The translations under genes and the position numbers were made by a program. A model generated the notes under the pieces. That model was not told where the DNA came from and did not search any database. It was given only the letters and a program-made list of their open reading frames with translations. Shown here one piece after another: positions 16,411 to 32,972 of a stretch of DNA of 36,721 bases. Positions within the stretch are counted from its first letter, which is position 1; each line of letters opens with the position of its first letter. The DNA comes from Sphaerochaetaceae bacterium (GTDB lineage: Bacteria > Spirochaetota > Spirochaetia > Sphaerochaetales > Sphaerochaetaceae). The stretch spans positions 1 to 36,721 of the forward strand of contig JAQQAI010000042.1 of the NCBI GenBank assembly GCA_028532915.1, given 5' to 3'.

Positions 16411-17535
16411 TTGAAAGGTTACGATGTACAGATAGAGAATGTCTCAAGAGCCTACGGCTCTTTCAAGGCCCTGGATGATGTGAGTATCGATATAAAAAAG
16501 GGAGAGTTCTTCTCTCTTCTGGGCCCTTCAGGATGCGGAAAGACCACTCTTTTACGTATCATCGCCGGATTCGATTCCCCCGATACCGGCATTCTTCTGT
16601 TCGATGGAAAGGAGATACTCTCCCAGCCCCCTGAAAAGAGGCATGTGAATACGGTATTTCAAAGCTATGCCCTTTTCCCTCATCTTACCGTCTATGAAAA
16701 CGTGGCCTTTCCGCTGCGCCTCAAAAAGATCGACAAAAACCTCATCGATTCGAAAGTGAGAGAATATCTTCATCTCGTTCAGCTCGATTCGCACATCCAT
16801 AAGAAACCCGGCAAACTCAGCGGAGGACAGAAACAGAGAGTCGCTATTGCACGCGCACTGATCAACGAACCGAGTGTCCTTCTTCTTGACGAACCTCTTT
16901 CTGCTCTCGACGCGAAACTGAGACAGAACCTCCTTGTCGAGCTCGATCATCTTCATGACCAGATCGGCATCACCTTCATCTACGTGACCCACGATCAGAG
17001 TGAAGCTCTCTCGGTCAGTGACAGAATCGCCGTGATGAATCAGGGCAAGGTCCTTCAGGTGGGTACCCCTTATGAGATCTATGAAAGCCCCGCGACAGAT
17101 TTCGTCGCCCGTTTCATCGGAGAGACCAATCTGTTCGAAGCGACGGTAGTGAACTGCGACCCGTACGAAGATTACTTCATGACCACACTCGATATCCCTG
17201 CGTTGAATTCTCTGGTGAAGGTCACCGATTACGACAATCTGGAAAAAGGCCAGCGGGTATCGTTCACGGTCCGGCCGGAGAAACTGAAGATCACCGGGGA
17301 GAGACCGAACAAAGTCGGAAAGGATATCAATCTGTTCCATGGAATCGTAGAGGAGCCGATCTACAGCGGTTTTCAGTCGAAATACTACGTCCTGCTCGAA
17401 AATTCGACTGTCATCAAGGTTATCCAGCAGCATGCGAACTATATGGATGAAGGGCCCGAGATAGACTGGAAGGATTCCGTCTTCGTCTCCTGGAGCGCCG
17501 AAGACGGCTACATCGTCGAGGTGGTGGATTCATGA
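16411..17535 (+). CDS. potA: Spermidine/putrescine ABC transporter ATPase PotA
   Basis: The 374-residue ATPase has Walker A GPSGCGKTT, a Q-loop in VFQSYALFPH, signature LSGGQKQR, Walker B LLLDEPLSALD and switch His in VTHDQ. A C-terminal TOBE regulatory domain follows from about residue 250. It energises polyamine uptake through PotB/PotC. The start is TTG; AGGGAGG lies 13 bases and AGGA 6 bases upstream, and no ATG fits. Its stop overlaps potB. Confidence 0.94.
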   Translation: MKGYDVQIENVSRAYGSFKALDDVSIDIKKGEFFSLLGPSGCGKTTLLRIIAGFDSPDTGILLFDGKEILSQPPEKRHVNTVFQSYALFPHLTVYENVAFPLRLKKIDKNLIDSKVREYLHLVQLDSHIHKKPGKLSGGQKQRVAIARALINEPSVLLLDEPLSALDAKLRQNLLVELDHLHDQIGITFIYVTHDQSEALSVSDRIAVMNQGKVLQVGTPYEIYESPATDFVARFIGETNLFEATVVNCDPYEDYFMTTLDIPALNSLVKVTDYDNLEKGQRVSFTVRPEKLKITGERPNKVGKDINLFHGIVEEPIYSGFQSKYYVLLENSTVIKVIQQHANYMDEGPEIDWKDSVFVSWSAEDGYIVEVVDS

Positions 17536-18425
17536 TGAACAACCGCAAACGCGAGATACGGCTCGGAACGACCTATTCTTTCCCTATGGGTATTTGGCTC
17601 TTCATTTTCTTTCTGGTCCCACTGCTGATCATCATTCTTTATTCCTTCATGAAGAAAGGATTGTACGGCGGTGTGGAATGGGAATTCTCGCTGGCCGCAT
17701 ACAGACAGATGTTCAACCCCAATTTCATGAGAGTCCTGGTCAGGACGATCGTCGTATCGGTCGCAGCGACGTTCTTCACTATGCTGCTGGCTCTGCCGTG
17801 CGGTTACGCCATGGCAAGAAGCCGCAATCAGACACTTCTTCTGGCTCTGATCATCATCCCTTTCTGGACAAACTCTCTCATCAGAATCTATGCATGGATA
17901 GCGATTCTCTCCAGTGAGGGCTTTCTCAACGAAACGCTTAAATTCTTTCATATCATCAGCGAGAGTCTCCCGCTTATCTACAACCAGGGAGCTGTGGTCA
18001 CCGTACTGATCTACATGTACATTCCTTTCGCGATTCTTCCGATTTTCACCACGATCGACAAATTCGACTTCCAGCTGCTCGAAGCGGCAAGAGATGTGGG
18101 TGCTAACAAGACCAGGGCGATCATCTCGGTCCTTCTTCCAAATATTCGAAGCGGTATCATCACTTCCTTCATCTTCACATTCATCCCCATCTTCGGCGCA
18201 TATACCGTCCCCCTCCTGGTAGGTGGAAAAGACTCCTACATGATCGGAAACATCATAGTCGATCAGGTTACCAAGACGAGAAACTGGCCGCTGGCCTCGG
18301 CTTTCAGCCTCATTCTCACTCTCCTGAGCACGCTGGGCGTCATGTGGATGATGGTCTCGAGCGCAAAGGAAAGATCGCAGAGCGGGAAAAAAAATCCCTC
18401 GTTTAGACAGGGAGGAAACCTATGA
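17532..18425 (+). CDS. potB: Polyamine ABC permease PotB
   Basis: A 297-residue permease with about six membrane helices. The EAA loop is LLEAARDVGANKTRAIISVL and the helix ending in IPFWTNSLIRIYAW is typical of PotB. It forms the channel with PotC. The start is in ATGATG overlapping the potA stop by 4 bases; either ATG is possible. Confidence 0.94.
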   Translation: MMNNRKREIRLGTTYSFPMGIWLFIFFLVPLLIIILYSFMKKGLYGGVEWEFSLAAYRQMFNPNFMRVLVRTIVVSVAATFFTMLLALPCGYAMARSRNQTLLLALIIIPFWTNSLIRIYAWIAILSSEGFLNETLKFFHIISESLPLIYNQGAVVTVLIYMYIPFAILPIFTTIDKFDFQLLEAARDVGANKTRAIISVLLPNIRSGIITSFIFTFIPIFGAYTVPLLVGGKDSYMIGNIIVDQVTKTRNWPLASAFSLILTLLSTLGVMWMMVSSAKERSQSGKKNPSFRQGGNL

Positions 18426-19291
18426 GTTCACTCGATCCCTCTTTTCTCATCAAGGCTCCGACACATCCTGTCGGTGTATATAAAGTCTCGAAGAATCAGG
18501 TATTCAAAGACCACCGCAGATTCGGTTTTTCCAATATCGTCCTGGTTTTGACCATCCTGTTTCTTTTCACTCCACTGATAGTGGTCATAACCTACTCTTT
18601 CAACAGTTCGAAAGGGATGATGTGGACAGGTTTCTCTCTCAAATGGTATGCCGCCTTGCTGTTCGACTCGGAGGAACTGTGGAGAGCATTTCTGAACAGT
18701 TTCATCATAGCCATCTCATCTTCGGCTGTGGCTACCGTTCTCGCCTCTTTAGCGGCTGTCGGGATCAAGTGGTATTCGTTCAAAGGAAGACAGTTCATAC
18801 AGACTCTCAGCTTTCTGCCGATGGTTCTGCCTGAAGTGATCATAGGTATTTCGATGCTCATATTCTTCACGGCGATTAAACTGCCTCTGGGAATGTTCTC
18901 GATCTTCATAGCTCATACGACCTTCAACCTTCCTTTCGTCTTCCTCCTTGTCTCCGCTCGCCTCGATGAGTTCGATTTCACGATCCTCGAAGCCGCAAGG
19001 GACCTTGGAGCTTCTGAAAGACAGACGCTGATGAAAGTGATCGTTCCTTCCATCATGCCCGGAGTGATGAGCGGACTTCTCATGTCGATAACGATGAGCC
19101 TCGAAGATTTCGTCATCACCTTTTTCGTCTCGGGTCCCGGGTCGACTACATTACCTCTGTACGTCTATTCGATGATACGTTACGGCGTCTCCCCGGTTAT
19201 CAATGCCCTTTCCTTCGTCCTGATTCTCTCGATCATACTTCTCGCCTTCGCTCTGCGCCGTTTCTTGAAGGTGATAGCCGCCTCAAGCTGA
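18422..19291 (+). CDS. potC: Polyamine ABC permease PotC
   Basis: A 289-residue permease; its EAA loop ILEAARDLGASERQTLMKVI is followed by the PotC-typical SLEDFVITFFVSGPGSTTLP. About 30 hydrophilic residues precede the first helix, a longer cytoplasmic N-terminus than in E. coli PotC. The ATG overlaps the potB TGA (ATGA) and GGAGG lies just before it. Confidence 0.94.
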   Translation: MSSLDPSFLIKAPTHPVGVYKVSKNQVFKDHRRFGFSNIVLVLTILFLFTPLIVVITYSFNSSKGMMWTGFSLKWYAALLFDSEELWRAFLNSFIIAISSSAVATVLASLAAVGIKWYSFKGRQFIQTLSFLPMVLPEVIIGISMLIFFTAIKLPLGMFSIFIAHTTFNLPFVFLLVSARLDEFDFTILEAARDLGASERQTLMKVIVPSIMPGVMSGLLMSITMSLEDFVITFFVSGPGSTTLPLYVYSMIRYGVSPVINALSFVLILSIILLAFALRRFLKVIAASS

Positions 19292-19378
19292 TCACCCTTT
19301 TTCTCAGAACATCGCGTTCCGGGGTATGACCGTATGGTGGTCCCGGACGTCTGAATCTCCTTCTTTCGGGAGGATCAT

Positions 19379-20446
19379 ATGAATAAAAAGATGCATTTCA
19401 TCTTTATCGTGATAATCTTCACGATCTCAATCGTCTTTACTGCAGGCTGTGCCAAAGAAGAAGCAGTAAAAAAACAATCAGATACAAATACTCTCTATCT
19501 GTACAATTGGACCTACTACACCCCCGAGTCGGTCATCGAGAAATTCGAAGAGGAATTCAACGCGAAAGTCGTCCTCGACTACTTCGGATCGAACGAAGAT
19601 ATGTTCGCAAAGCTGAAAGCCGGCGGATCCGGTTATGATATCGTATTTCCTTCCCAGGATTACGTTTCGATCATGATGACCCTCGATATGCTCACACCCA
19701 TTGATCTTGAGAAGATTCCCAACAGCCGGTACATCAGTGATCTTGCACTCAGTAAGGCAACCTACGATCCATTGATGAACTACAGTGTCCCCTACTTCAT
19801 GGGAGCAGCCGGCATAGCCGTGAACACGAAAAAGGTGACCGATTATCCCCGCGACTGGTCGATCTTCTCACAGACAAAGCTGAAAAACAGAATGAGTATG
19901 CTCGATGACATGAGAGAAGTAATGGGTGATGCTCTGGCACACCTGGGCTACAGCGTCAACACGACCGATGAAAAGGAACTCAAAGAGGCTCAGCAGCTGA
20001 TCAACGGGGAATGGAAACCCAATCTTACGAAATTCGATGCCGAAGGGTTCGCGAAAAGTTTCTCTTCAGGTGAATTCTATGTCGTACAGGGCTATGCGGA
20101 AGCTATCTTCGAAGAGATCGAGGAAGACAGATGGGATGATGTCGATTTCTTCCTTCCCGAAGAAGGAGGGCCGATGTACCTCGATTCGATGGTGATTCCC
20201 AAAGGGGCGAAACATATCGAACTGGCGCACCAGTTCATCGATTTCATCCATCGTCCCGAAATCTATGCCGAATTCCTCGACAGATTCAGATTTCCCTCGT
20301 CTGTTCATACCGAAGCTATGAATTACACGACAAAAGAACCTTTCTATGTCGAAAGTGATCTGGCCAACTATGAACTGAAAAACGATCTGGGAGAGAACCT
20401 GGCCGCCTACGATGAGATCTGGCAGACTGTCAGGTATACTGATTAG
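19379..20446 (+). CDS. potD: Polyamine-binding lipoprotein PotD
   Basis: The 355-residue solute-binding protein has a lipoprotein signal with lipobox TAGC (Cys24), so it is membrane-anchored rather than free. The PotD fold begins LYLYNWTYYTPESVIEKFEEEF and includes GYDIVFPSQDYV and WSIFSQTKLKNRMSMLDDMR. It binds spermidine or putrescine and delivers it to PotBC. An 87-base gap after potC holds a weak CCGGG/CCCGG hairpin (19319-19346); the ribosome binding site is GGGAGGA. A strong terminator follows. Confidence 0.93.
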   Translation: MNKKMHFIFIVIIFTISIVFTAGCAKEEAVKKQSDTNTLYLYNWTYYTPESVIEKFEEEFNAKVVLDYFGSNEDMFAKLKAGGSGYDIVFPSQDYVSIMMTLDMLTPIDLEKIPNSRYISDLALSKATYDPLMNYSVPYFMGAAGIAVNTKKVTDYPRDWSIFSQTKLKNRMSMLDDMREVMGDALAHLGYSVNTTDEKELKEAQQLINGEWKPNLTKFDAEGFAKSFSSGEFYVVQGYAEAIFEEIEEDRWDDVDFFLPEEGGPMYLDSMVIPKGAKHIELAHQFIDFIHRPEIYAEFLDRFRFPSSVHTEAMNYTTKEPFYVESDLANYELKNDLGENLAAYDEIWQTVRYTD

Positions 20447-20559: not shown

Positions 20560-21024
20560 ATGAAAAAAAGCATTATCGTCCTTGTCACAATCTTTCTGGT
20601 TATGATAATTTTCAGCAGCTGCGATACATGGTATTTCAGGAACAAAGAACTTATCGTTGATAACCAGAGTAATCTTGATATCACTGAGTTGAACGTGAAT
20701 ATCCTGGATTCCGGACAATTGACGAATTTTTACAAAAGCGCAGGAGAATCTATGCCGACTGTGTACATCACATCCGGTGAGAGTAAAGAATATGCGATTC
20801 CCTATATTCCTTCAAACAGCAGATCCGATCAGATCTATGTATTTGCCGAAGGTATGGATTCACTCGACGATGATTACGATGCTGGTATAGTTTTTACATT
20901 CGACACATCATCAAGTGAAGGTATCATCCTCACTCTCACACAAGACGATGAAAGAGGGGCTTCTATCAGTTACCATTTTGAAGGCGAAGGAGCAGGCTTT
21001 CAGAAAATCGATGACTTAGATTAA
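20560..21024 (+). CDS. Small lipoprotein of unknown function, paralogue 1
   Basis: A 154-residue protein with a lipoprotein signal (lipobox FSSC, Cys21), so anchored in a membrane and mostly outside the cytoplasm. I do not recognise the family. The body is rich in Asp, Ser and beta-prone segments. It shares an ordered set of motifs with the next gene: YITSGESKEYAIPYIP against IYAGDTKDYAVPYMA, IVFTFDTSSSE against ILFTFDAGSTE, and a GEGAGFQKI-like end. AGAGGT lies 10 bases before the ATG. Confidence 0.8.
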   Translation: MKKSIIVLVTIFLVMIIFSSCDTWYFRNKELIVDNQSNLDITELNVNILDSGQLTNFYKSAGESMPTVYITSGESKEYAIPYIPSNSRSDQIYVFAEGMDSLDDDYDAGIVFTFDTSSSEGIILTLTQDDERGASISYHFEGEGAGFQKIDDLD

Positions 21025-21092: not shown

Positions 21093-21542
21093 ATGAAAAA
21101 ACATATAACAGTGATCATTCTGACGGCGATTCTGGTCGTAATCTCAGTATCGTGCAACGAAACACCATATGCTGTCAAAACGGTTCATTTCGTCAATGAC
21201 AGTGACGTTGACATCACCGCGGTACATTATGTCTACGGTGACAATATAGATTCGATAGATTCGAGAATCAGTATTTCAACAGAGCCTGTCATCTATGCGG
21301 GAGATACGAAAGATTATGCCGTTCCCTATATGGCGAATCAGGGGACAAGCGACACCTATGGCTTCACAGCATACTATGAAGAGCCGGACAGAGATGTATT
21401 TTCCTACCCCACAATATTGTTCACTTTCGATGCGGGAAGCACCGAAGATATCACGTTGGTGTTGCAGGGAGAGATGGACTCATATACCATCACCGGCGAA
21501 GGAAGCGGTATCGAAGAGGTTGAATATATAGCATATGACTGA
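21093..21542 (+). CDS. Small lipoprotein of unknown function, paralogue 2
   Basis: A 149-residue lipoprotein with lipobox SVSC (Cys21) and no recognised family. It is collinear with the preceding gene: FVNDSDVDITAVHY corresponds to IVDNQSNLDITELNV, then the KDYAVPY, LFTFDAGS and GEGSGIEEVE motifs. This indicates an old tandem duplication. It follows 68 bases after its partner, with AAAGGA before the ATG, and is convergent with the phosphorylase gene. Confidence 0.8.
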   Translation: MKKHITVIILTAILVVISVSCNETPYAVKTVHFVNDSDVDITAVHYVYGDNIDSIDSRISISTEPVIYAGDTKDYAVPYMANQGTSDTYGFTAYYEEPDRDVFSYPTILFTFDAGSTEDITLVLQGEMDSYTITGEGSGIEEVEYIAYD

Positions 21543-21576: not shown

Positions 21577-22296
21577 TCAGCTCAGCGTCTCCTTAGCAAG
21601 CAAAGTAAGCTGGTCGACAGCCTTCTCGGTGATTTCCTTTTCGATGAAACTGATGCCTTCGGCATCAAGTCCGGCAGCCCAGTTCATCGAATAGACCAGC
21701 CCGGCAAATTCGATATGCAGCTCGTTTGCAAGTATCGTCTCTGTGGCCGCGGTCATCCCCACGTAATCGGCACCGAGTCGACGGTACATAGTGATCTCTG
21801 CAGGAGTCTCGAGCCTGGGTCCGTTCGTGCAGACATACGTACCTTTCAAAGACAGCGGTATCCTCAGTTCCTTGGCCTTGTTGGCCAGCAGCACCCGCAG
21901 TCTTCTGCTGTAGGGAAAGACCATCGGAGTGTGTTCGAAAGGCTCGTTGAGTGTGTCGTAGAACGTTGAGATTCTGTTGTTCGTCAGATCGATGAACTGG
22001 TCTATGAGGCCCAGATTTCCCGGAATCACCATGGAAGTGATCGAACCGACTCCGTACAGACCTATGATCTGCGTCACACCAACCTTTTTCAAAGCTGTGA
22101 TGTTCGCCCGGTAATTGATCAGATGAGGAGGAACGGTATGTCCTTTTTCATGTCTGAGAAGATAGAAGATGGAATTTTCGTTCACCTTCTCTTCCCACAG
22201 CGTCGCATCTCCATACTCGGTTGAAACACACACCTTCTCTGCATTCGCGGGAATCAGGCCCTGAAAGCCGCTTCCGCCTATAATCGCCGAATTCAT
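21577..22296 (-). CDS. Methylthioadenosine/methylthioinosine phosphorylase
   Basis: A 239-residue purine nucleoside phosphorylase of the MTAP/MTIP group. It splits a 5'-methylthio nucleoside with phosphate into base and methylthioribose 1-phosphate. It has AIIGGSGF, the phosphate/ribose region RHEKGHTVPPHLINYRANI, GTYVCTNGPRLETPAE and VGMTAATE. The base-contact segment reads SMNWAAGL (Asn205). Asn there is typical of enzymes that prefer 6-oxopurines, whereas adenine-specific MTAPs have Asp, so methylthioinosine may be the true substrate (inference). GGAGG is 7 bases before ATG 22296. The ATG overlaps the mtnA-like stop by one base, and both genes are coupled to the deaminase. Confidence 0.86.
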   Translation of the reverse strand: MNSAIIGGSGFQGLIPANAEKVCVSTEYGDATLWEEKVNENSIFYLLRHEKGHTVPPHLINYRANITALKKVGVTQIIGLYGVGSITSMVIPGNLGLIDQFIDLTNNRISTFYDTLNEPFEHTPMVFPYSRRLRVLLANKAKELRIPLSLKGTYVCTNGPRLETPAEITMYRRLGADYVGMTAATETILANELHIEFAGLVYSMNWAAGLDAEGISFIEKEITEKAVDQLTLLAKETLS

Positions 22297-23342
22297 CAAT
22301 CATCCTCCAGATCGAATATATCCATAATCTGATCGGGCGCATAGAGCCCTTTCGGAGTAATTATCCCTGTTATGAGAGAACGTGGAATCTTATCGAAGGC
22401 GGGATAGACTCCCTTCACACCCTCAGCAGTGATTCTTCTGTTTTCGAACACAAAAAGTTCTTCAGGGTCTCTCTCCTCCATCTCTATATCCTCTAAAGTC
22501 TTCTTCGTTCTGTCAGGAGAGACTGAGAACACATGGAAGGGAAGAGAAAAATGACGGCAGATGATCGCATTGTTCAGCGTCCCGACCTTGTTCACGGCAG
22601 ATCCGTCCATACAGAGGGTATCTACGGCACTCATGTACCGGTTGATCTTTCCTTCCACGATGTAGTGTGCCGCCATCGCATCGCTCATAAGTGTCGTATC
22701 GATTCCCGATTGCACCAGCGAAGGTGCACTAAGATGTGCTCCCTGCAGATACGGGCGGGTTTCAGGTACCCATGCTGTTACGTCCTTTCCAGAGTTTCGT
22801 GCTTTGAGAAGAGAAAGGATGAAGGTATGCTCGGCAAAGCAGGTCGTGAACACACCATCTCCGTCTGAAATCAGGTCCGCTCCGAGATCGCTCATATGAT
22901 CGTAGATTCTGTCGAACTCATCCTCTATCGCTGATACTTTCTCTGTGACGAAAGGCACGATATCGTGTCTGTTGAGCATCTGCGGGTGGCGAGAAAGATC
23001 TTCTGCGACTCTCTGATAGAGGCGGCGGGCTGTGGTGTTTGTCTTCCGCGCTTCCAGTATAGGTCTCATACTGTTTTCGAAACTTTCCAGTGAGAGGTCG
23101 ACTCTCCCCCGGTCCATCAGACGGGCGATATAGATCATGGAAGTAAGGACCACCTGCTGTACCCCTCCTCCCTGGGTGACCATTGCTTTGAGACAATCTG
23201 CAATCTCTTCCGGTGAGCTACATGCAACAAATTCATCGCAGTGAGGATATCTTCTTCTGTTGTGGATATAGAACACATCGTCTTCGATATGGGCTATCAC
23301 CCGCTTTTGCAGGATGTGAGGCAGTTGTGAGTCAAGGTCCAT
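22296..23342 (-). CDS. mtnA: Methylthioribose-1-phosphate isomerase-like protein (MtnA/eIF2B family)
   Basis: A 348-residue aldose-ketose isomerase that should convert methylthioribose 1-phosphate to methylthioribulose 1-phosphate. The family pattern ETRPYLQGAHLSAPSLVQSGIDTTLMSDAMAA (read in two parts) is clear. By eye, Cys168 and Asp241 align with the catalytic Cys160 and Asp240 of B. subtilis MtnA. The usual HCN around the Cys is replaced by TTCFAEH and ANGD by CMDGS, so it is a divergent member and a related sugar-phosphate substrate is possible. It lies 3 bases after the deaminase gene and overlaps the phosphorylase gene. Confidence 0.82.
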   Translation of the reverse strand: MDLDSQLPHILQKRVIAHIEDDVFYIHNRRRYPHCDEFVACSSPEEIADCLKAMVTQGGGVQQVVLTSMIYIARLMDRGRVDLSLESFENSMRPILEARKTNTTARRLYQRVAEDLSRHPQMLNRHDIVPFVTEKVSAIEDEFDRIYDHMSDLGADLISDGDGVFTTCFAEHTFILSLLKARNSGKDVTAWVPETRPYLQGAHLSAPSLVQSGIDTTLMSDAMAAHYIVEGKINRYMSAVDTLCMDGSAVNKVGTLNNAIICRHFSLPFHVFSVSPDRTKKTLEDIEMEERDPEELFVFENRRITAEGVKGVYPAFDKIPRSLITGIITPKGLYAPDQIMDIFDLEDD

Positions 23343-23345
23343 CGG

Positions 23346-23849
23346 TCAGTCCCAGAATCCGATATGGTCTTTAAGAATCCGGTCTCTCAACGATTTGTCA
23401 TCGACGGGACCGACCACAATGATATCCTTCTGTCCGTGATCGATCACCGATCTGCAGGGAAGAGAGAAGGTCGGATTCTCTTCATTCGATCCGGTCAATT
23501 CAAGAAGGGTATGTTCGGTGAGGCCGTAGACAAGACGCCCCACATTTGCCCAGTACAGAGCCCCGGTACACATCACGCACGGTTCGATAGTCGTATAGAG
23601 GGTGCACTCTGAAAGGAAATCTCTCGAATATTCCTTCGACGCTCTGAAAAGCAGTGCCGTCTCCGCGTGTCCGCAGTCATTATGCTCGGTCACGACCTCG
23701 TTTCCCTGTGTCATCAGGATATGCCCCTCTCTGTCGGCCAATAGAGCCCCGAAGGGATGATTCCCCTGTGCACGCGAGAGGGTTGCCACCTCTGCGCTTT
23801 CATACAGCAGTTCAATATCTCTTTCGGTGATCGTTCCTTCGACTGTTCC
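23346..23849 (-). CDS. Cytidine-deaminase-fold purine/nucleoside deaminase
   Basis: A zinc hydrolase of 167 residues with HAE (His62, Glu64) and PCVMC (Cys92, Cys95), the metal and proton-shuttle residues of the CDA superfamily. NHPFGALLAD and the length resemble guanine deaminase/GuaD-type proteins more than TadA. It opens the operon before the MtnA-like and phosphorylase genes, so deamination of a purine or purine nucleoside in methylthionucleoside salvage is likely (inference). An earlier frame extends to 23891, but ATG 23849 has GAAGGA 6 bases before it. The promoter region contains TATACT near 23916. Confidence 0.85.
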   Translation of the reverse strand, partial: GTVEGTITERDIELLYESAEVATLSRAQGNHPFGALLADREGHILMTQGNEVVTEHNDCGHAETALLFRASKEYSRDFLSECTLYTTIEPCVMCTGALYWANVGRLVYGLTEHTLLELTGSNEENPTFSLPCRSVIDHGQKDIIVVGPVDDKSLRDRILKDHIGFWD

Positions 23850-23960
23850 CATAATGTTTCCTTCAGTTATTTTGTGCCAACACTTTACCACGTTACAGCC
23901 TCAGTATAAAGAGTTTACCTGAAAAACACTTTCTCTTCAGTCATTCCACACAAACTTCTA

Positions 23961-23989
23961 TAGACAATAGGAAGGAGTATTGCGATACT
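23961..23989 (+). promoter_or_regulatory. Promoter of the orphan HTH gene
   Basis: TAGACA (23961-23966) and GATACT (23984-23989) are separated by 17 bases. The predicted start near 23996 falls after the upstream in-frame start at 23980 and so supports the ATG at 24025. Confidence 0.55.
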
Positions 23990-24024
23990 ATACAGAAAAG
24001 GCATCTTTTTTTTGGAGATTTTCA

Positions 24025-25581
24025 ATGAATTTTGGTGAGAAACTTGAGCTGCTGATGAATATGACAAATACCACTAACAACGAAATCGCTTCCAGATTGG
24101 ATATCGATCCTTCGCTGGTCAGCCGCTTCAGAACGGGGAAAAGAGTTCCCAGTGCAGCAAGCGGATACAGGGAACAGATAGCGTCATTCATCGCTTCGAA
24201 AGCGACAGAAGATTATCAGAAGGCTGCACTGATGGAACTCACAGATACTATCTGGGATGAGAACGAAGACGAGTGTGAATTCCTGACTTCGATAATCACA
24301 TCATATCTTGAGGATTCATCTTTCATCACCCAGCGTGAAATCTCTCATTTTCTTTCGACCGTAGGATCATATTCCAAAATCCCCGGACACCCGGTCCCGG
24401 TAGAACAACCGGAAACGGTCAGCGGCGAAGTGATTGCCCATGAGCTGTACAAAGGACATGACGGGCTCAGAGCGGCAGTCATCACGTTTCTCTCAACTGC
24501 GCTGCAGATGCAGGGACACGTGACATTACGCCTGTTCAGCGAAGAGGAAATCTCATGGATCACAGAGGACCTGACATTCGCCAGATTGTGGACGAACCTG
24601 CTTACCGCCTGTATTCATAAGGGTATCCGCATCGAGATCATACATACACTTCAGCGCAGTTCAACCGAACTCAATACGGCCTTAGCCAGGTGGTTCCCGT
24701 TCTATCTGAGCGGAATGATCACAAGCTACTATATGCCGATAAGATATGAAAAGATCTTCGAGCATACGATCTTCCTCATGAACGACACCCATGCGGTCTA
24801 TTCCCACTCTCCTTCGAACCAGGATAGAGAAGATAGGGTTTATTACAGTGTCTCGAATCCCGAGTCTTTATCAAATCTTCTCTCCTCCTTCCGGTCATTG
24901 AAACGTGAGGCAAAACCTCTCATACGTCCCTATCGGGAACCCACCGTCGAATCCTATTTTGAAGCAGTCTCCGCATCATTCGATTCAAAAGGGGATGATG
25001 CTCTTGGTCTAGAAAGTCTCTTTTCTCTGTCCATGAACGAGACGCTGCTCGAAAAGATCCTCACCAGATGCGAGGTGGAAAATACTGTGATAGAACATGC
25101 TGTCAGGATGCAGAAGGAAGTCAATGCGAAGGTCTCATCATATCTTCAGGACAGAAATCTCACCCTGATCACGACTCTTCCCAGAATAACCGAAGTTCTG
25201 AAAGGAAAGAAAGATTGTATTCTTCCCCTGTTGGGCAGAGATCTGAAGATCACCTATCTTCCCGGGGAGTTCAAAGAACATCTTGAATATATCATCGCCA
25301 TGCTCAACAAGCATGCCCGTCTCAACATATTCATCATTCCTCATCAGCGCTTCCCGTTCGGAGTACAAACGCTGTGTATCGATCACGATTCTCTTCTGGT
25401 ACTGAAACAGACCAGACCGACTCTGATGTTCTCTTCAGAGCAGAAGGAACTGGTCACTTCGATGAGAAACTATATCGCTGACACCGCCTCGAGCATCCCG
25501 AAACGGCACAGGAAGAAGGAATACGTCATATACAGATTCAATCAGTACATCTCGAAAATAGAAAGAGGATTGAGAAGTTAA
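24025..25581 (+). CDS. Orphan helix-turn-helix protein with large uncharacterised C-terminus
   Basis: A 518-residue soluble protein. Residues 1-45 form an XRE-type helix-turn-helix (TNNEIASRLDIDPSLVSRFR; recognition helix SLVSRFRTGKR). The remaining 470 residues are mixed helix/strand without a domain I recognise. TGGAGA lies 6 bases before the ATG. It stands alone between the methylthio operon (divergent) and the sugar permease gene (convergent, 4-base overlap). A sensor-regulator with a ligand- or protein-binding C-terminus is possible but unproven. Confidence 0.78.
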   Translation: MNFGEKLELLMNMTNTTNNEIASRLDIDPSLVSRFRTGKRVPSAASGYREQIASFIASKATEDYQKAALMELTDTIWDENEDECEFLTSIITSYLEDSSFITQREISHFLSTVGSYSKIPGHPVPVEQPETVSGEVIAHELYKGHDGLRAAVITFLSTALQMQGHVTLRLFSEEEISWITEDLTFARLWTNLLTACIHKGIRIEIIHTLQRSSTELNTALARWFPFYLSGMITSYYMPIRYEKIFEHTIFLMNDTHAVYSHSPSNQDREDRVYYSVSNPESLSNLLSSFRSLKREAKPLIRPYREPTVESYFEAVSASFDSKGDDALGLESLFSLSMNETLLEKILTRCEVENTVIEHAVRMQKEVNAKVSSYLQDRNLTLITTLPRITEVLKGKKDCILPLLGRDLKITYLPGEFKEHLEYIIAMLNKHARLNIFIIPHQRFPFGVQTLCIDHDSLLVLKQTRPTLMFSSEQKELVTSMRNYIADTASSIPKRHRKKEYVIYRFNQYISKIERGLRS

Positions 25582-26393
25582 CCTTTCACGGCGCCCATCG
25601 TGAGTCCTTTGACGACATATTTCTGGAAGATCATGGTCAGTATGATAGCCGGGGTCATGATCGCCACGGCAGCGGCCATCACTCCTCCCCAGTCCACTTC
25701 GGCATAGGACATGAAATTGTAGACAGCTATCGGAAGTGTCCGTGTCTTCTCCATGCTCAGCACCTGAGAGAACATGAAATTATTCCAGCTGAAAATAAAG
25801 CTCAAGGTGGTGGAGGTGACGATTCCGGGTACGGACAGAGGTAGAATGATGGAAACAAAGGCCCTCTGCATCGTTGCTCCGTCGACCATCGCAGACTCTT
25901 CCATCTCTCTGGGAACTCCTTCGAAATAACTCGACATGATCCAGACCACAACCGGAAGCGCTATCAGAATATGGGAAAGTACGAGAGCGGTGTAGCTGTC
26001 CATCAGACCGAGACGGGAGAATACGATATACCAGGGCATCAGAAATGATATTCCGGGCATGAGCCGGGCTACAAGGATCAGAACCGATAGTCTTTTCTGG
26101 GAGAATCTTGCGATCGAATAGGCTGCAGGCAGCCCCAACAGCAGTGAAAATCCTACCGACAGGACTCCGACGATCGTCGAATTTTTGAGGTATAGAAGGA
26201 AATTCTGCTCGTTGAACACTTTATTGAAATTGATCAGTGTCGGAGAGAATATGAATTTGGGAGGCCAGCTTATGATGTCTACCTGTGTCTTGAACGAAGA
26301 GAGGAACATCCATAGAAACGGGAAGATCATCGGGATGATGATGATAAGGATGATCACGACGAATCCGATTTTTCTGTGTAATGGTCTTTTCAC
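25578..26393 (-). CDS. Sugar ABC transporter permease, MalG type
   Basis: The 271-residue inner-membrane permease of the carbohydrate uptake-1 class has six predicted helices. Its EAA loop EESAMVDGATMQRAFVSIIL binds the ATPase, and the end of the chain (VVKGLTMGAVKG) is highly typical of MalG-like proteins. The start is GTG after AAGGAGGAG. It is last in the binding protein-permease-permease unit. No cognate ATPase is encoded here, so a shared MsmX/UgpC-like ATPase elsewhere probably serves it. Confidence 0.93.
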   Translation of the reverse strand: MKRPLHRKIGFVVIILIIIIPMIFPFLWMFLSSFKTQVDIISWPPKFIFSPTLINFNKVFNEQNFLLYLKNSTIVGVLSVGFSLLLGLPAAYSIARFSQKRLSVLILVARLMPGISFLMPWYIVFSRLGLMDSYTALVLSHILIALPVVVWIMSSYFEGVPREMEESAMVDGATMQRAFVSIILPLSVPGIVTSTTLSFIFSWNNFMFSQVLSMEKTRTLPIAVYNFMSYAEVDWGGVMAAAVAIMTPAIILTMIFQKYVVKGLTMGAVKG

Positions 26394-26405
26394 AATCTCC
26401 TCCTT

Positions 26406-27284
26406 TTACAGCTCGAATCGTTTTCTCAGCCGCATCACACCGAGACTGAACAGAAGTACGAGCAAGAACAGAAATACCAGAATCGAAGAAGCCTGTCCGA
26501 GATTGAAATATTCGAAGCTGTATTTGTATGCGAGAATATTCAATGTCTCGGATGCATAACCGGGTCCTCCGCCTGTCATCGCGTAGATGATATCGTAGGT
26601 CTTCAACGCATCTACGGCCCTCAAAATTACGGCGGTGAGTATCGTGGGGGTGATCATCGGAAGAGTGATCCTGAAGAAGATCTGAGATGAGGAGGCCCCG
26701 TCGACTTTCGCCGATTCATACGGTTCGCTCGACAGTCCCGCCAGTCCCGCCAGGACGATCAGTGCGATCATGGGAGTCCACTGCCACACATCCACAGCCA
26801 TGAGAGAAGGAAGGACGGTAGCTGAATCTGTCACCCATCCGCTTTGGGGCAGATGGAAGAGACTCAGCACATAGTTGAGAAAGCCTATAGTCGGATCATA
26901 AAACAGATTGAAGACGATACCGACAGCGACCGGTGTAGCTACCAGAGGAAGCAGCAGAATGAACTTCAATCCGTTCTTTCCTCTGAATTCTCTGTTGAGA
27001 ATAAGTGCGATGATGATACCCAGTACAGCTTCGGCCGCAACAGCTCCGACAGTGAAATAGAAGGTCCTTCCCACTGCATCAAGGAATCTAGGTTCTTTGA
27101 GGATCTTGAGATATGAGGAGAATCCTGCAAAGGTGATCGGACGACCGCTAGTGAGCGTCCATTCCGAGAAACTGAGGATAAGGGTGTAGACGACGGGAAA
27201 CACCATCAATGCGATGACGAAGATGAGTGCCGGCAAAGGAAAAATATATTTCAGATTGCGTTCGAAGAATCCGCTTTTTATCAC
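26406..27284 (-). CDS. Sugar ABC transporter permease, MalF type
   Basis: A permease of 292 residues with six helices and EAA loop PYESAKVDGASSSQIFFRITLP. It pairs with the MalG-type permease 12 bases downstream. I chose GTG 27284 because AGGAGGT lies 6 bases before it. The upstream ATG at 27305 would place the ribosome binding site inside the gene. Confidence 0.92.
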   Translation of the reverse strand: MIKSGFFERNLKYIFPLPALIFVIALMVFPVVYTLILSFSEWTLTSGRPITFAGFSSYLKILKEPRFLDAVGRTFYFTVGAVAAEAVLGIIIALILNREFRGKNGLKFILLLPLVATPVAVGIVFNLFYDPTIGFLNYVLSLFHLPQSGWVTDSATVLPSLMAVDVWQWTPMIALIVLAGLAGLSSEPYESAKVDGASSSQIFFRITLPMITPTILTAVILRAVDALKTYDIIYAMTGGGPGYASETLNILAYKYSFEYFNLGQASSILVFLFLLVLLFSLGVMRLRKRFEL

Positions 27285-27314
27285 GAAGAGACCTCCTGCT
27301 TTCAAAATGTAAGT

Positions 27315-27345
27315 AAGAGGGGATCGTGCAGAGCAATCCCCTCTT
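27315..27345 (-). promoter_or_regulatory. Hairpin between binding-protein and permease genes
   Basis: AAGAGGGGAT and ATCCCCTCTT form a perfect 10-bp stem with an 11-base loop. No T-run follows, so it probably limits read-through or protects the binding-protein mRNA, giving more binding protein than permease. Confidence 0.7.
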
Positions 27346-27365
27346 TCGATGTATATCCCGGGAAG

Positions 27366-28631
27366 CTATTTCATTCCATATTCACCGTCGGCTTTCAACA
27401 GATCGTTGACCGCCTTGGCTTTTTCGGTCGCGAGTGACTGCAGTTTCGGTGACATACCCTTCGTGTTGATCGATTCGATGACGATCTCGCCGATCAGGTC
27501 TCTGGCCTGTCCGACTGCACTCATGAACGGACGGTCGAAAGGATATCCGTTCATCGCCGCATGTGCCTGAGTTTCGATCAGTCCGGGGTTCATCATCGCT
27601 CTTACGCTTTCGTCGGCCCAGGCTGAATTTCTTGCCATCGTGATATTGCTCTTCATTCCTTCGATAGCCAGGCTCTTGCTTGTCGCCCATTCGAGGAATT
27701 TCATAGCAGCTTCGGTATTCTTGGTCTTGCTGCTCATCGCCATTCCCCAGGAGACGACGATGAACGGGCTGTCATCAACCGGACCTCTGGGAAGCTGTGC
27801 GACACCGACATCCTCTGCAGGTATCTGAGTCTTGGCAGGATCGACTACCTGACCGTAGAAGACCGAAGCATCTGTCCACATAGCCAGCTTGCCGGCCTGG
27901 AACACGGGCATCAGGTTCTCCCATGACATCGAGACCACACCCTGCGGTCCGTAGTTGCCCAGAAGTTTTCCGTAGTATCTGATAGCTTCGACGGCCTCGG
28001 GGGAATCGAACACTGCGATATTGTCCTCAAGGTACCGCCCGCCGTAGTTATAGATGTAACTTGAGAGCTGGGTCACCGCGGCAGCCCCCTTCCCTCTTGA
28101 ACCGAATCCGGCCACACCATCTTTATTCAAAGCCTTGGCGGCTGCTTCAAGTTCTTCGAAATTCGTGGGAACATCGATTCCTGCGGCTTCGAACAGATCT
28201 TTTCTGTAATACATCACCTGCCATTCGGTGACAAGCGGTACGATGAACGGCGTGCCGTCCTTCCTGCCGATATCGACTGTATTCCCGGGATAATCCGAGA
28301 AATCATACGAATCCAACGGTGCATACCATCCGTTCTTGTTGAACAGCAGTCCTTCCTGCAGCGGACGGGTCATGAAGACATCGACGGTGGAAGAACCTGT
28401 CGCGAACTCTGTCGTCAGCTTCTGTGTAAGCTGACTTTCCTGCAGCGATTCCACATTGACCTTGATCCCGGTCTGTTCTTCGAATTCTCCGATGGATTCC
28501 TTCAACAGTTCTCCATAGGGGTGGTTAGCGAGTAAAACACGAATCTCCTGTTGGGCACTCTCAGTCTGACCTTGTGCAAAAAGGACAAATGACAGGCTCA
28601 CTACGAGTAAAACAACGAAAACCTTTTTCAT
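27366..28631 (-). CDS. Extracellular sugar-binding protein of ABC transporter
   Basis: A 421-residue family-1 solute-binding protein with signal peptide MKKVFVVLLVVSLSFVLFAQ and the spirochaete-like junction AQGQTES. Typical segments are LLKESIGEFEEQTGIKVNVE, VDVFMTRPLQEGLLF and WQVMYYRKDLFEAAGIDVP. It delivers a sugar or oligosaccharide to the two downstream permeases. The adjacent KDG-kinase-like gene suggests a uronate- or aldonate-linked substrate, but the sequence does not prove it. Confidence 0.92.
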   Translation of the reverse strand: MKKVFVVLLVVSLSFVLFAQGQTESAQQEIRVLLANHPYGELLKESIGEFEEQTGIKVNVESLQESQLTQKLTTEFATGSSTVDVFMTRPLQEGLLFNKNGWYAPLDSYDFSDYPGNTVDIGRKDGTPFIVPLVTEWQVMYYRKDLFEAAGIDVPTNFEELEAAAKALNKDGVAGFGSRGKGAAAVTQLSSYIYNYGGRYLEDNIAVFDSPEAVEAIRYYGKLLGNYGPQGVVSMSWENLMPVFQAGKLAMWTDASVFYGQVVDPAKTQIPAEDVGVAQLPRGPVDDSPFIVVSWGMAMSSKTKNTEAAMKFLEWATSKSLAIEGMKSNITMARNSAWADESVRAMMNPGLIETQAHAAMNGYPFDRPFMSAVGQARDLIGEIVIESINTKGMSPKLQSLATEKAKAVNDLLKADGEYGMK

Positions 28632-28677
28632 GAACTTCTCCTTTTTTCCAGAATTTATGAAACGTATTCACTATTTA

Positions 28678-28706
28678 AGTATCGAGCACAATTTTCGGAT
28701 TGTCAA
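28678..28706 (-). promoter_or_regulatory. Promoter of the sugar ABC transporter unit
   Basis: On the minus strand a perfect TTGACA (28706-28701) is followed after 17 bases by GATACT (28683-28678). Transcription would start about 40 bases before the binding-protein ATG. Confidence 0.65.
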
Positions 28707-28726
28707 ACACAAAATGACTGGTATTT

Positions 28727-28760
28727 TTCATTTACATGAATATTTTTTTCATATTATAAT
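28727..28760 (+). promoter_or_regulatory. Promoter and dyad upstream of the RpiR-type regulator
   Basis: TTTACA (28731-28736), 18 bases, then a perfect TATAAT (28755-28760). A dyad TTCAT-N4-ATGAA (28727-28740) covers the -35. It is a candidate operator in the divergent region between the transporter and regulator genes. The start would be close to ATG 28769, so a downstream ATG (28781) may be used. Confidence 0.5.
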
Positions 28761-28768
28761 AGAGAAAT

Positions 28769-29638
28769 ATGAGAGATGAGATGCAGGAGAAGAACATACC
28801 GGTAATAAGCTGCCTCTATACGATACATCATATGCGAGATCGGCTCAGTGCTTCGCATCGGCGTATTGCGGACTATATCATCGAGCATCCCCAGAGGGCG
28901 ATTCATGCGACGATCGATACTCTTGCTGGAGAGATCGGGACAAGTGAGTCGACTCTTGTACGCTTCGTGAGAAAACTGGGGTACGACGGATACCAGCACT
29001 TCAGGATCTCTCTTGCGACCGAACTGGTATCTCCTGTGAAACGGGTCTACGAGACTGACATCAACCAGGAAAAGAATATCATCCCGACGGTCTTCAACAG
29101 TTCGATAGAGACTCTCAGGGCGACAAGAGAACAGCTCGATTCATCGAAAGTCCTTCAGACGGCAAGGCAGATGATCGAAGCCGAGAACGTTCTTCTGTTC
29201 GGTATGGGAGGATCCTTCATCGTAGCTCTCGACGGCTTTCACAAGTTCGTCAGGATCGGCCTCCCCGTCAAGATGATCCAGGATTTCCATATTCAGCTGA
29301 TGATGGCCAGTCAGTCTTCACCTGCTGATGTGGCACTTCTCTACAGTCATACAGGTATCAATGTCGATGCCATCTCGATCGCTGATGAACTGGGAAAGCA
29401 GGGATGTCCTACGATCTGTATCACAAGCAATGAGAATTCTGTCCTTTCACAACACTGCAGCAGCACACTCGGCGTATACACCAGGAGCAACGGTGTGATC
29501 AGTGAAGCATTCAGTGCCAGAATCGCCCAGATGGCAGTCAACGACGCTCTTTACCTCTATGCAATCAAAGAGAGGGAGGAAAAAAGTGTCAATCAGCTCG
29601 AGAAAATGCAATCTGTCATCTCCAAGAGAAGAATTTAA
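28769..29638 (+). CDS. RpiR/MurR-family sugar-phosphate-responsive regulator
   Basis: A 289-residue regulator. An N-terminal HTH (IDTLAGEIGTSESTLVRFVRKLG, about 50-72) is followed by a SIS domain (about 120-255; LLFGMGGSFIVALDGFHKFVRIG, then LLYSHTGINVDAISIADELGK) that binds phosphosugars in relatives. It is divergent from the sugar transporter and upstream of the kinase/dehydrogenase genes, so it probably controls both sides. The exact start is uncertain among ATG 28769, ATG 28781 and a later Met. Confidence 0.9.
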   Translation: MRDEMQEKNIPVISCLYTIHHMRDRLSASHRRIADYIIEHPQRAIHATIDTLAGEIGTSESTLVRFVRKLGYDGYQHFRISLATELVSPVKRVYETDINQEKNIIPTVFNSSIETLRATREQLDSSKVLQTARQMIEAENVLLFGMGGSFIVALDGFHKFVRIGLPVKMIQDFHIQLMMASQSSPADVALLYSHTGINVDAISIADELGKQGCPTICITSNENSVLSQHCSSTLGVYTRSNGVISEAFSARIAQMAVNDALYLYAIKEREEKSVNQLEKMQSVISKRRI

Positions 29639-29686
29639 AACGTAAATATGCTACCATACTAATATGATAGATTTAAGGAGTAAGAA

Positions 29687-30805
29687 ATGGGGACATTAAC
29701 TATGATTCAGGACACCGGAGCAAAGAGTGTGAAAGACTCTTCATATGACTTTATGGCATTGGGAGCTCTGGTCACACGACTCGACCCGGGGATAATACCT
29801 TTTGAATATGCTTCATCCTACGACCTTCATGTTTCGGGAGGAGAATTCAACGTCGCGGCAAATCTTTCAAGAGCTTTCGGTCAAAAAAGTGCCGTCATCT
29901 CCGCGATGGTCGACTACCCTATCGGAAAGAAGGTGGAAGCCGAAGTGAGAAAAATGGGTGTCGACGCCTTTTACAAGAGGTTCACTCACAACGGAGTGCA
30001 CGGGCCGACGATAGCACAGGTGTGGAGCGATCAGGGAAAAGGAGTGAGAGCTCCTGTCGTCTTCTATAACAGGGCCAATGAAGCTGCGGCATTGCTGGAA
30101 AAAGATAGTTTTGACTGGGATGCAATATTTTCCAACGGTATCCGGTGGTTCCACAGCGGAGGGATCTTCAGCGCTCTTTCCGAAACGACTCCCGAGGTCG
30201 TCATCGAAGGTATGAAAAGAGCGAAGGAAGCCGGTGCGATCATCTCCTTCGATCTGAATTATCGGGCGAAACTGTGGTCTGCGAACGCACTCGAAGGAGA
30301 GGATGCTGTCAGCAAGGCTCAAAAAGTCCTCTCTAAGATAGTTGAACATGTCGATGTACTTGTCGGAAACGAAGAGGATCTTCAGATGGGTCTCGGTCTG
30401 CAGGGGCCGAAAGTCGAAAAACAGTCGAAACTCGATCCTTCGGTCTTCTTTTCGATGATGGAGACAGTGAAGGAAAGATTCCCGAACATCAAGGCTGTCG
30501 CCACGACGATGAGAGAGGTCCGTTCGACGAACCGGCATGACTGGAGTGCGGTCCTTTACATCGGGGGGAAAGCATATCAGGCACCGACTGCCTCGCTTGA
30601 TGTTTACGACAGAGTCGGCGGTGGTGACGGATTCGCTGCAGGATTGATCTACGGAATACTTCAGGATATGGAGCCGCAGAAAGCACTGAATCTGGGGTGG
30701 GCTCATGGCGCATTGTTGACAACCTTCCCCGGTGATACGACAATGGCTACGCTGGAACAGGTCGAAGCATTCGCTCAGGGAGGTTCGGCCCGCATTCAGC
30801 GTTAA
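29687..30805 (+). CDS. PfkB-family sugar kinase, KDG kinase-like
   Basis: A 372-residue ribokinase-fold kinase. It has the N-terminal SGGEFNVAANLSRAFG substrate segment, GAIISFDLNYRAKLW and VLVGNEEDL, and the anion-hole/catalytic motif GGGDGFAAGL. ISFDLNYR together with the GNEEDL pattern is typical of 2-keto-3-deoxygluconate kinases, which feed KDPG to an aldolase. TAAGGAG lies 6 bases before the ATG. It is the first of three tightly spaced catabolic genes; no KDPG aldolase is present in the window, so the exact substrate stays open. Confidence 0.87.
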   Translation: MGTLTMIQDTGAKSVKDSSYDFMALGALVTRLDPGIIPFEYASSYDLHVSGGEFNVAANLSRAFGQKSAVISAMVDYPIGKKVEAEVRKMGVDAFYKRFTHNGVHGPTIAQVWSDQGKGVRAPVVFYNRANEAAALLEKDSFDWDAIFSNGIRWFHSGGIFSALSETTPEVVIEGMKRAKEAGAIISFDLNYRAKLWSANALEGEDAVSKAQKVLSKIVEHVDVLVGNEEDLQMGLGLQGPKVEKQSKLDPSVFFSMMETVKERFPNIKAVATTMREVRSTNRHDWSAVLYIGGKAYQAPTASLDVYDRVGGGDGFAAGLIYGILQDMEPQKALNLGWAHGALLTTFPGDTTMATLEQVEAFAQGGSARIQR

Positions 30806-30817
30806 GGAGAAAAAGTA

Positions 30818-31852
30818 ATGAAAGCGCTCGTTCTGACCGGATACAAAAGATTGGAGTACATGGAGGTCGCCACCCCGACTATCAGAAAAAGTGATGAGGT
30901 GCTCATCAGGATCGCTGCTTCCGCTATCTGCGGTTCAGATATCCACGGATACGACGGGTCGACCGGCCGCAGACAGCCGCCGGTGATCATGGGACATGAA
31001 GCTTCGGGAGTCGTGGAAGAGATCGGCAATGAGGTAACAAAAGTCTCTGTCGGTCAGAGAGTCACCTTCGATTCCACCATCTGGTGCGGAGAGTGCCGCT
31101 TCTGCAGAGATGGCAGAGTGAACCTCTGTGTCAACAGACGGGTGCTTGGAGTCTCATGCGATGATTACAGACAGGACGGGACCTTCGCTGAATATGTGGT
31201 GGTTCCGCAGCATATCATCTTCCCTATCGCTGATGAGGTATCCTTTGACGAAGCAGCTCTGACCGAACCGGCATCCGTGGCAGCCCATGCTCTGAGGATC
31301 ACACCGGTAAGATTGAACGACAGTATCGCGATAGTGGGAGCAGGTCTTATCGGTCTGCTTGCCATCCAGATGGCGAAGACAAGAACCGCAGGGGCGGTCG
31401 TTGCCCTCGATACGGATGAGAACAGAAGGGACATCGCTGTCGAATTCGGCGCCGATGCCGCCTTCGCCCCTGAAGATCCCGACCTGTCCGATAGAATAAG
31501 AGAAGTGACCGGAATTTCAGGATGCAGCAGAGTCATCGAAGCTGTGGGAGCGACCGCTCCGGTACGCACTGCCGTCTCCATCGTGGAAAACGGCGGTTCT
31601 GTCACGCTGATAGGAAACGTAAGCCCCTCGATAGATCTGCCTCTGCAGCAGATAGTGACCAGAGAGATTGCTCTGTACGGTTCTTGTGCGATAGCGGGAG
31701 AATACCCGCTGGTACTCGATATGATGGCTCGAAAGAAGATCGATGTAAAACCGCTGATAAGTATCACCGACACTCTCGAAAACGGTCCCAAATGGTTCGA
31801 CATCCTTTACAGTAGAAAACAACCTCTATTAAAGGTAGTATTGAAACCATAG
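30818..31852 (+). CDS. Zinc-dependent MDR alcohol/polyol dehydrogenase
   Basis: A 344-residue medium-chain dehydrogenase. Catalytic zinc residues are Cys38, His60 and Glu61 (GHE). Structural zinc is held by Cys90, Cys93, Cys96 and Cys104 (CGECRFCRDGRVNLC). The Rossmann motif is VGAGLIGLLAIQ. It resembles sorbitol, galactitol or hexonate 5-dehydrogenases that oxidise a secondary alcohol with NAD(P). The ribosome binding site TAAGGAG overlaps the kinase stop 12 bases upstream, indicating one operon. Confidence 0.9.
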   Translation: MKALVLTGYKRLEYMEVATPTIRKSDEVLIRIAASAICGSDIHGYDGSTGRRQPPVIMGHEASGVVEEIGNEVTKVSVGQRVTFDSTIWCGECRFCRDGRVNLCVNRRVLGVSCDDYRQDGTFAEYVVVPQHIIFPIADEVSFDEAALTEPASVAAHALRITPVRLNDSIAIVGAGLIGLLAIQMAKTRTAGAVVALDTDENRRDIAVEFGADAAFAPEDPDLSDRIREVTGISGCSRVIEAVGATAPVRTAVSIVENGGSVTLIGNVSPSIDLPLQQIVTREIALYGSCAIAGEYPLVLDMMARKKIDVKPLISITDTLENGPKWFDILYSRKQPLLKVVLKP

Positions 31853-31861
31853 GAGGCGCAA

Positions 31862-32938: not shown

Positions 32939-32964
32939 CCTGTAAAGCTGTATTGTCGTAGAGT
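32935..32964 (+). promoter_or_regulatory. Possible promoter of the large lipoprotein gene
   Basis: TTGACC, 18 bases, then TAGAGT, overlapping the end of the Gfo/Idh/MocA gene. The start would fall at or just before ATG 32973, so the mRNA may be leaderless; no Shine-Dalgarno is visible. Confidence 0.4.
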
Positions 32965-32972
32965 CTATCTAT

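Follow-up and report, generated by a model that had tools for sequence, protein, structure and literature searches.

What does a tightly packed operon that joins a deaminase, an isomerase and a phosphorylase salvage, and does its deaminase act on the nucleoside or on the purine base? The question bears on 5'-deoxyadenosine and methylthioadenosine (MTA), which are inhibitory by-products of SAM chemistry; to our knowledge, their disposal is only partly known for many bacteria. The operon lies in the window analyzed here, 36,721 nucleotides from a Sphaerochaetaceae bacterium, which make up contig 42 in an assembly of 2.64 Mb. Reading the open reading frames of the window located all three genes where a first-pass annotation had put them, on the minus strand in the order DEAM-MTNA2-PHOS, with a divergent protein on the opposite strand:

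23346..23852, minus strand: DEAM, CDA-fold deaminase, 168 aa (PF00383, 65.8 bits; alignment with symporter-linked relatives)
22296..23342, minus strand: MTNA2, eIF-2B/MtnA family isomerase, 348 aa (PF01008, 133.6 bits; alignment and tree)
21577..22296, minus strand: PHOS, MTAP/MTIP-group phosphorylase, 239 aa (PF01048, 96.8 bits; NCBIfam scores; 27-row alignment)
23980..25581, plus strand: divergent protein, 533 aa, which may regulate the operon (relative in locus L045)

DEAM starts at the ATG at 23852, and the ATG of MTNA2 at 23342 follows the DEAM stop codon after a gap of 3 bases. PHOS starts at the ATG at 22296, which shares one base with the MTNA2 stop codon (TGATG), so that the TTG start at 22299 proposed earlier for PHOS is unnecessary. 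The first-pass annotation had described a deaminase, phosphorylase and isomerase operon headed by a CDA-fold deaminase. This description holds, as the three genes are present, linked and conserved in family genomes, and the PF00383 protein is the first of them.

Conservation was followed in two samples, one of 392 genomes of the phylum and one of 119 from the family. The first sample contained the window-type isomerase in 26 other genomes, all of the same family; PHOS adjoins it in 26/26 and DEAM in 21/26, one of these being split by a contig end. In the second sample, MTNA2 was present in 75 of the 119 genomes, with PHOS adjacent (within 400 bases on the same strand) in 73, DEAM adjacent by the same measure in 54, and both in 53. 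Among the 21 MTNA2 genomes without an adjacent DEAM, 11 carry the gene elsewhere and none was found in 10. Conversely, 21 of the 86 family genomes with DEAM are without MTNA2, and 18 of these 21 are also without an MTAP-type phosphorylase match above 130 bits. DEAM directly adjoins PHOS in the absence of MTNA2 in genomes G395 and G302. The three-gene operon is real, and its arrangement is beyond chance. A single-protein scan of genome contigs returned four distant PHOS relatives, and another such scan gave no match. An acetyltransferase with two GNAT domains lies directly 3' of PHOS in two loci (L044:4743-5846 and L045:8945-10063).

PHOS scored 191.5 bits against the S-methyl-5'-thioinosine phosphorylase (MTIP) model NF006599 and 191.2 bits against the S-methyl-5'-thioadenosine phosphorylase (MTAP) model TIGR01694, below the curated cut-offs of 223 and 274.85, respectively. 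Its L045 ortholog reached 208.7 bits with the MTIP model, and the MTAP cut-off was passed in 0/119 family genomes. The alignment revealed the base contacts Glu163 (in GPRLET) and Asn205 (in NWAAG, replacing Asp), each in 27/27 rows, a pair that is found in Pseudomonas aeruginosa MTIP (PDB: 3ozb), unlike archaeal MTAP (PDB: 2a8y). Asn205 had been singled out earlier as favoring 6-oxopurines, and that residue proved to be correct. Phe217, likewise in 27/27 rows, is located at the 5' pocket and would suit a hydrophobic 5' group; at its place the trimeric PNP of the genome has LNHQEV, the His of which we take to be the 5'-OH contact, as in human PNP. Only three PF01048 genes occur in the genome, namely PHOS, this PNP (above its cut-off) and a uridine-phosphorylase-like protein named by eye, and PHOS is thus the sole candidate of its group for methylthioinosine or 5'-deoxyinosine. 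These observations support PHOS as a putative phosphorylase of 6-oxopurine 5'-modified nucleosides, of the methylthioinosine or 5'-deoxyinosine type.

MTNA2 shares 28% identity with the canonical MtnA that the genome also encodes and scored below the cut-offs of both MtnA models (TIGR00512, 154.1 bits, cut-off 279; NF004326, 211.4 bits, cut-off 271). The catalytic residues Cys168 and Asp221 are kept and are invariant in 78/78 aligned isomerases, as are one Arg, a Gln, an Asn and a Lys, while about seven residues after Cys168 are missing through a loop deletion. At the position of the phosphate-clamp Arg, MTNA2 has Gln57. In the P. horikoshii enzyme, as described in the available portion of PMC5789824, the 1-phosphate is held by Arg22, the equivalent of this Gln. 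The earlier remark that the MtnA is divergent around its active site thus finds its basis in the low identity, the profile scores and the replaced clamp residue.

A tree was built from 78 isomerase rows, comprising 31 TQGGG (including the window), 22 other TQ and 25 RGAP sequences; the canonical row of L104 and the assayed Bacillus thuringiensis DrdI were left out of it. Three groups formed, and the TQ (53 rows) and RGAP (25 rows) sides were separated with 100/100 support. The clamp position holds Gln in 31/31 TQGGG and 22/22 other TQ rows and Arg in 25/25 RGAP rows, counts that follow groups sorted on that motif itself, the grouping in the tree being independent of it. Judged by this tree, MTNA2 belongs to a separate TQ clade, apart from canonical MtnA, and its assignment as a canonical MtnA was rejected on the cut-offs and its place outside the RGAP clade. 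The Arg replaced by Gln in the TQ clade is one that canonical MtnA and ribose 1,5-bisphosphate isomerase have in common. The locus points to an MtnA-like clade that profiles label methylthioribose 1-phosphate isomerase, yet which is without the phosphate-binding Arg. The MtnA-like gene of L043 is of the RGAP type. L051 and L052 carry TQGGG isomerases with neither DEAM nor PHOS nearby, and the neighbors of the former include ECF-transporter genes.

The partners of TQ isomerases bear on their substrates. An MtnK-type kinase adjoins the isomerase in eight loci (L072, L076-L078, L118-L120 and L125), and in six of these the stretch also includes a class II aldolase. Among relatives of the window genome, the partners of TQ isomerases vary and are drawn from class II aldolase, PNP, amidohydrolase, Bmp transporter and DeoR regulator genes. 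Six PNPs of TQ clusters, when aligned, were all without the PNP His, with Gly, Ile or Glu in that column. Together, the MtnK-type kinases, His-less PNPs and class II aldolases point to 5-deoxypentose 1-phosphates as the likely substrates of the TQ clade.

Such clusters were seen in L156-L163 and L165, where the TQ isomerase is accompanied in varying sets by the aldolase, a His-less PNP, a DadD-like amidohydrolase, a Bmp/PnrA-type transporter and the DeoR regulator; uptake and catabolism of 5'-deoxynucleosides is their possible function. In genome G401, MTNA2 coexists with two further TQ isomerases, on contigs C23 and C39 (the latter being L165). Genes for the aldolase, PNP and a Bmp transporter come after the one on C39; for the one on C23, an aldolase match was located at a distance of about 3 kb.

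Comparable gene sets belong to the drd pathway, for which the accessible text of PMC6079011 describes versions with a kinase or a phosphorylase, and to the DHAP shunt covered by the available parts of PMC10986504 and PMC12632272. The clade of MTNA2 resembles the drdK-drdI-drdA/DHAP shunt in that it includes isomerases beside MtnK-type kinases and class II aldolases, B. thuringiensis DrdI being outside this comparison. The window operon differs from it in having a CDA-fold deaminase and neither aldolase nor kinase. Three class II aldolase-family genes are present in the genome, one of them at C50:12463-13101. Its orthologs (44-46% identity) immediately follow canonical mtnA in G367 and lie one gene from it in G378. 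The C50-type aldolase occurs in 67/75 MTNA2 genomes, with none found in the remaining 8, versus 15/44 other genomes, a comparison that ignores shared ancestry.

Elsewhere in the genome, an amidohydrolase gene (C89:313108-314400) directly precedes canonical mtnA, and on this evidence the idea that MTA salvage is otherwise missing from the genome was rejected. Aligned over 382 residues, the C89 amidohydrolase shares 34.6% identity with the TRZ/ATZ hydrolase whose gene neighbors mtnA in P. aeruginosa, presumably the MTA deaminase of that organism. It scored 306.2 bits against the 5'-deoxyadenosine deaminase model, below the cut-off of 522, and the adjoining MtnA passes TIGR00512 (431.6 versus 279 bits). 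Amidohydrolase-mtnA pairs, picked by eye, occur in 60/119 family genomes. MTNA2 is present in 59 of the 60 genomes with a pair versus 16/59 others (Fisher p 8e-18, shared ancestry ignored). From this co-occurrence we infer that PHOS serves the amidohydrolase-mtnA pair and that canonical MtnA and MTNA2 would take different sugar phosphates.

The MTA deaminase of P. aeruginosa is an amidohydrolase. The methylthioinosine pathway of that organism, as outlined in the available portion of PMC6302742, resembles the present arrangement in that MTA is deaminated before phosphorolysis, the phosphorylase is of the Asn, 6-oxopurine type, and the isomerase is of the MtnA family. Here, in contrast, the amidohydrolase is unlinked, the operon holds a CDA-fold deaminase, and its isomerase belongs to another clade.

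DEAM has the zinc motifs HAE (His62 and Glu64) and PCxxC (Cys92 and Cys95), with a conserved C-terminal aromatic residue, Trp167. Its fold is that of PF00383, not the amidohydrolase fold of known MTA deaminases, and the open-licence literature searched yielded no CDA-fold MTA deaminase. Among PDB sequences, it matches B. subtilis guanine deaminase GuaD best (PDB: 1wkq, 55.7 bits), followed at 30-52 bits by deaminases of cytosine, guanosine, tRNA and other substrates. GuaD has the same zinc motifs and the YW after the second Cys; only 87 DEAM residues align with it, however, the C-terminal part is unlike, and DEAM is linked to a phosphorylase and an isomerase. A role as the tRNA adenosine deaminase TadA was rejected (56.2 bits versus 150, NF008113). 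Adenosine deaminase and adenine deaminase of the genome score above their cut-offs, and the partial set of genome proteins scanned held no guanine deaminase above its cut-off.

Gene contexts were viewed for nine plasmid relatives of DEAM, among 40 of 188 records listed. Five adjoin an NCS2 nucleobase symporter; one adjoins a Bmp transporter and urease; another is followed by an ABC transporter and by what is annotated as an isoxanthopterin deaminase gene; a further one lies some kilobases from molybdopterin-enzyme genes; and the neighbors of the last are uninformative. Among 20 further DEAM regions of the family, 16 of which were grouped by clustering rather than by gene-by-gene annotation, three have DEAM in one run with a Bmp (PnrA-like) transporter and one other has it with PHOS; in L171, L176, L178 and L180 the position of DEAM is that of the search match and not of the ORF list.

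The first-pass annotation had assigned the MTA step to DEAM. That assignment is disfavored by the C89 amidohydrolase, by the 21/75 MTNA2 genomes in which DEAM is absent or unlinked, by the 21 genomes with DEAM and without MTNA2, and by the transporter-linked relatives. Since an MTA-type amidohydrolase is encoded elsewhere in the genome, the DEAM of the operon probably acts on a purine base. The genomes without MTNA2, together with the relatives beside nucleobase and nucleoside transporters, also make a purine-base deaminase likelier than an MTA deaminase, and the presence of adenosine and adenine deaminases, alongside the transporter contexts, favors the same kind of substrate. DEAM is probably a purine-base deaminase of the guanine type.

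Our preferred reading, of moderate confidence, is that the operon serves to salvage purine nucleosides of the 5'-deoxy type, with the C89 amidohydrolase as the main deaminase of the nucleoside and DEAM acting on the base. The earlier proposal of deamination-first salvage was right in kind as to the phosphorylase and the MtnA-family isomerase, and its CDA-fold MTA deaminase is the part that found no support and for which a likelier alternative exists. We propose every substrate and the direction of flow on the basis of features read from the sequence, namely gene order, conservation, active-site residues, clade and the presence of other genes. The C89 amidohydrolase would carry out the main deamination of MTA or 5'-deoxyadenosine ahead of PHOS, and PHOS would convert the 6-oxopurine 5'-deoxynucleosides (methylthioinosine, 5'-deoxyinosine) to the purine base and a 5-modified ribose 1-phosphate. 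MTNA2 would turn the sugar phosphate, most likely 5-deoxyribose 1-phosphate, into a ketose, which the C50:12463-13101 class II aldolase could cut to DHAP and an aldehyde. DEAM would act on a purine base, most likely converting guanine to xanthine. The locus also offers an easy way to test how common deamination-first disposal is.

Several observations stand against this preferred reading. Operon members usually belong to the same pathway, and an unrelated base deaminase is an odd partner as the first gene, adjacent to MTNA2 in 54/75 genomes. The parallel clusters hold an amidohydrolase in the role of DEAM, which by analogy favors a nucleoside deaminase. In addition, the aldolase is outside the operon, and the E. 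coli MtnA of the DHAP shunt falls in the RGAP clade, apart from MTNA2. It is conceivable, as a tentative alternative, that DEAM is a CDA-fold deaminase of MTA or 5'-deoxyadenosine, with PHOS phosphorolyzing its product and MTNA2 isomerizing the sugar phosphate. Its adjacency to MTNA2, the 6-oxopurine residues of PHOS, the parallel combination of amidohydrolase, PNP and TQ isomerase, and the DEAM-PHOS pairs without MTNA2 in G395 and G302 would all fit such a role. Against it, the genome already has the amidohydrolase beside mtnA, DEAM was not found in 10/75 MTNA2 genomes and is unlinked in 11/75, relatives adjoin nucleobase symporters, and 21 genomes have DEAM without MTNA2, 18 of them without the MTAP-type phosphorylase above 130 bits. 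It is doubtful that DEAM is the first CDA-fold MTA/5'-deoxyadenosine deaminase, replaced by an amidohydrolase in the parallel clusters, and that with PHOS and the TQ isomerase it forms a deamination-first, phosphorylase-type route of 5-deoxyribose disposal with Gln for the clamp Arg.

Guanosine catabolism is an unlikely function, in which PHOS would release guanine and ribose 1-phosphate, DEAM would act on the guanine, and MTNA2, as a ribose 1-phosphate isomerase, would supply ribulose 1-phosphate to an aldolase. The resemblance of DEAM to guanine deaminase and the three relatives in which its gene shares a run with Bmp (PnrA-like) transporters agree with it, but PHOS has Phe where the PNP of the genome has the His of the 5'-OH type, and TQ isomerases accompany MtnK-type kinases and His-less PNPs. 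Haloarchaeal guanosine degradation also passes through ribulose 1-phosphate, but with a kinase and a phosphatase, as far as the available part of PMC9700705 describes it. Highly improbable is a function of MTNA2 as ribose 1,5-bisphosphate isomerase, which was rejected on its profile score (TIGR00511, 113.7 bits versus a cut-off of 314.1). MTNA2 and the archaeal enzyme belong to one Pfam family, with a weak profile match, and have in common the catalytic Cys and Asp as well as four further residues of the active site; MTNA2 differs in the Gln for the 1-phosphate clamp Arg and is without the 5-phosphate site motif, as the Ser137-Lys138 given in the accessible text of PMC5789824 corresponds to Ala-Glu, counted from the catalytic Cys.

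The 533 aa protein upstream of the operon (23980-25581) is 36% identical over 518 columns to a protein at the same place in L045. The L045 counterpart carries HTH_3, and the window protein itself gave no Pfam match. It is possible that this divergent protein, which is conserved in place in relatives, represents a new regulator family. A potABCD-like polyamine transporter (16411-20446) converges on the operon, as does a similar transporter of four genes in L044, L045, L058, L066 and, judged from gene sizes alone, L145. Two small ORFs that resemble lipoproteins lie side by side (20560-21024 and 21093-21542), share 30% identity and have no Pfam matches. The stretch from 25578 to 34484 holds a sugar ABC transporter, an RpiR-type regulator, a PfkB-type kinase and inositol-type dehydrogenases, and is a probable sugar or inositol catabolic cluster.
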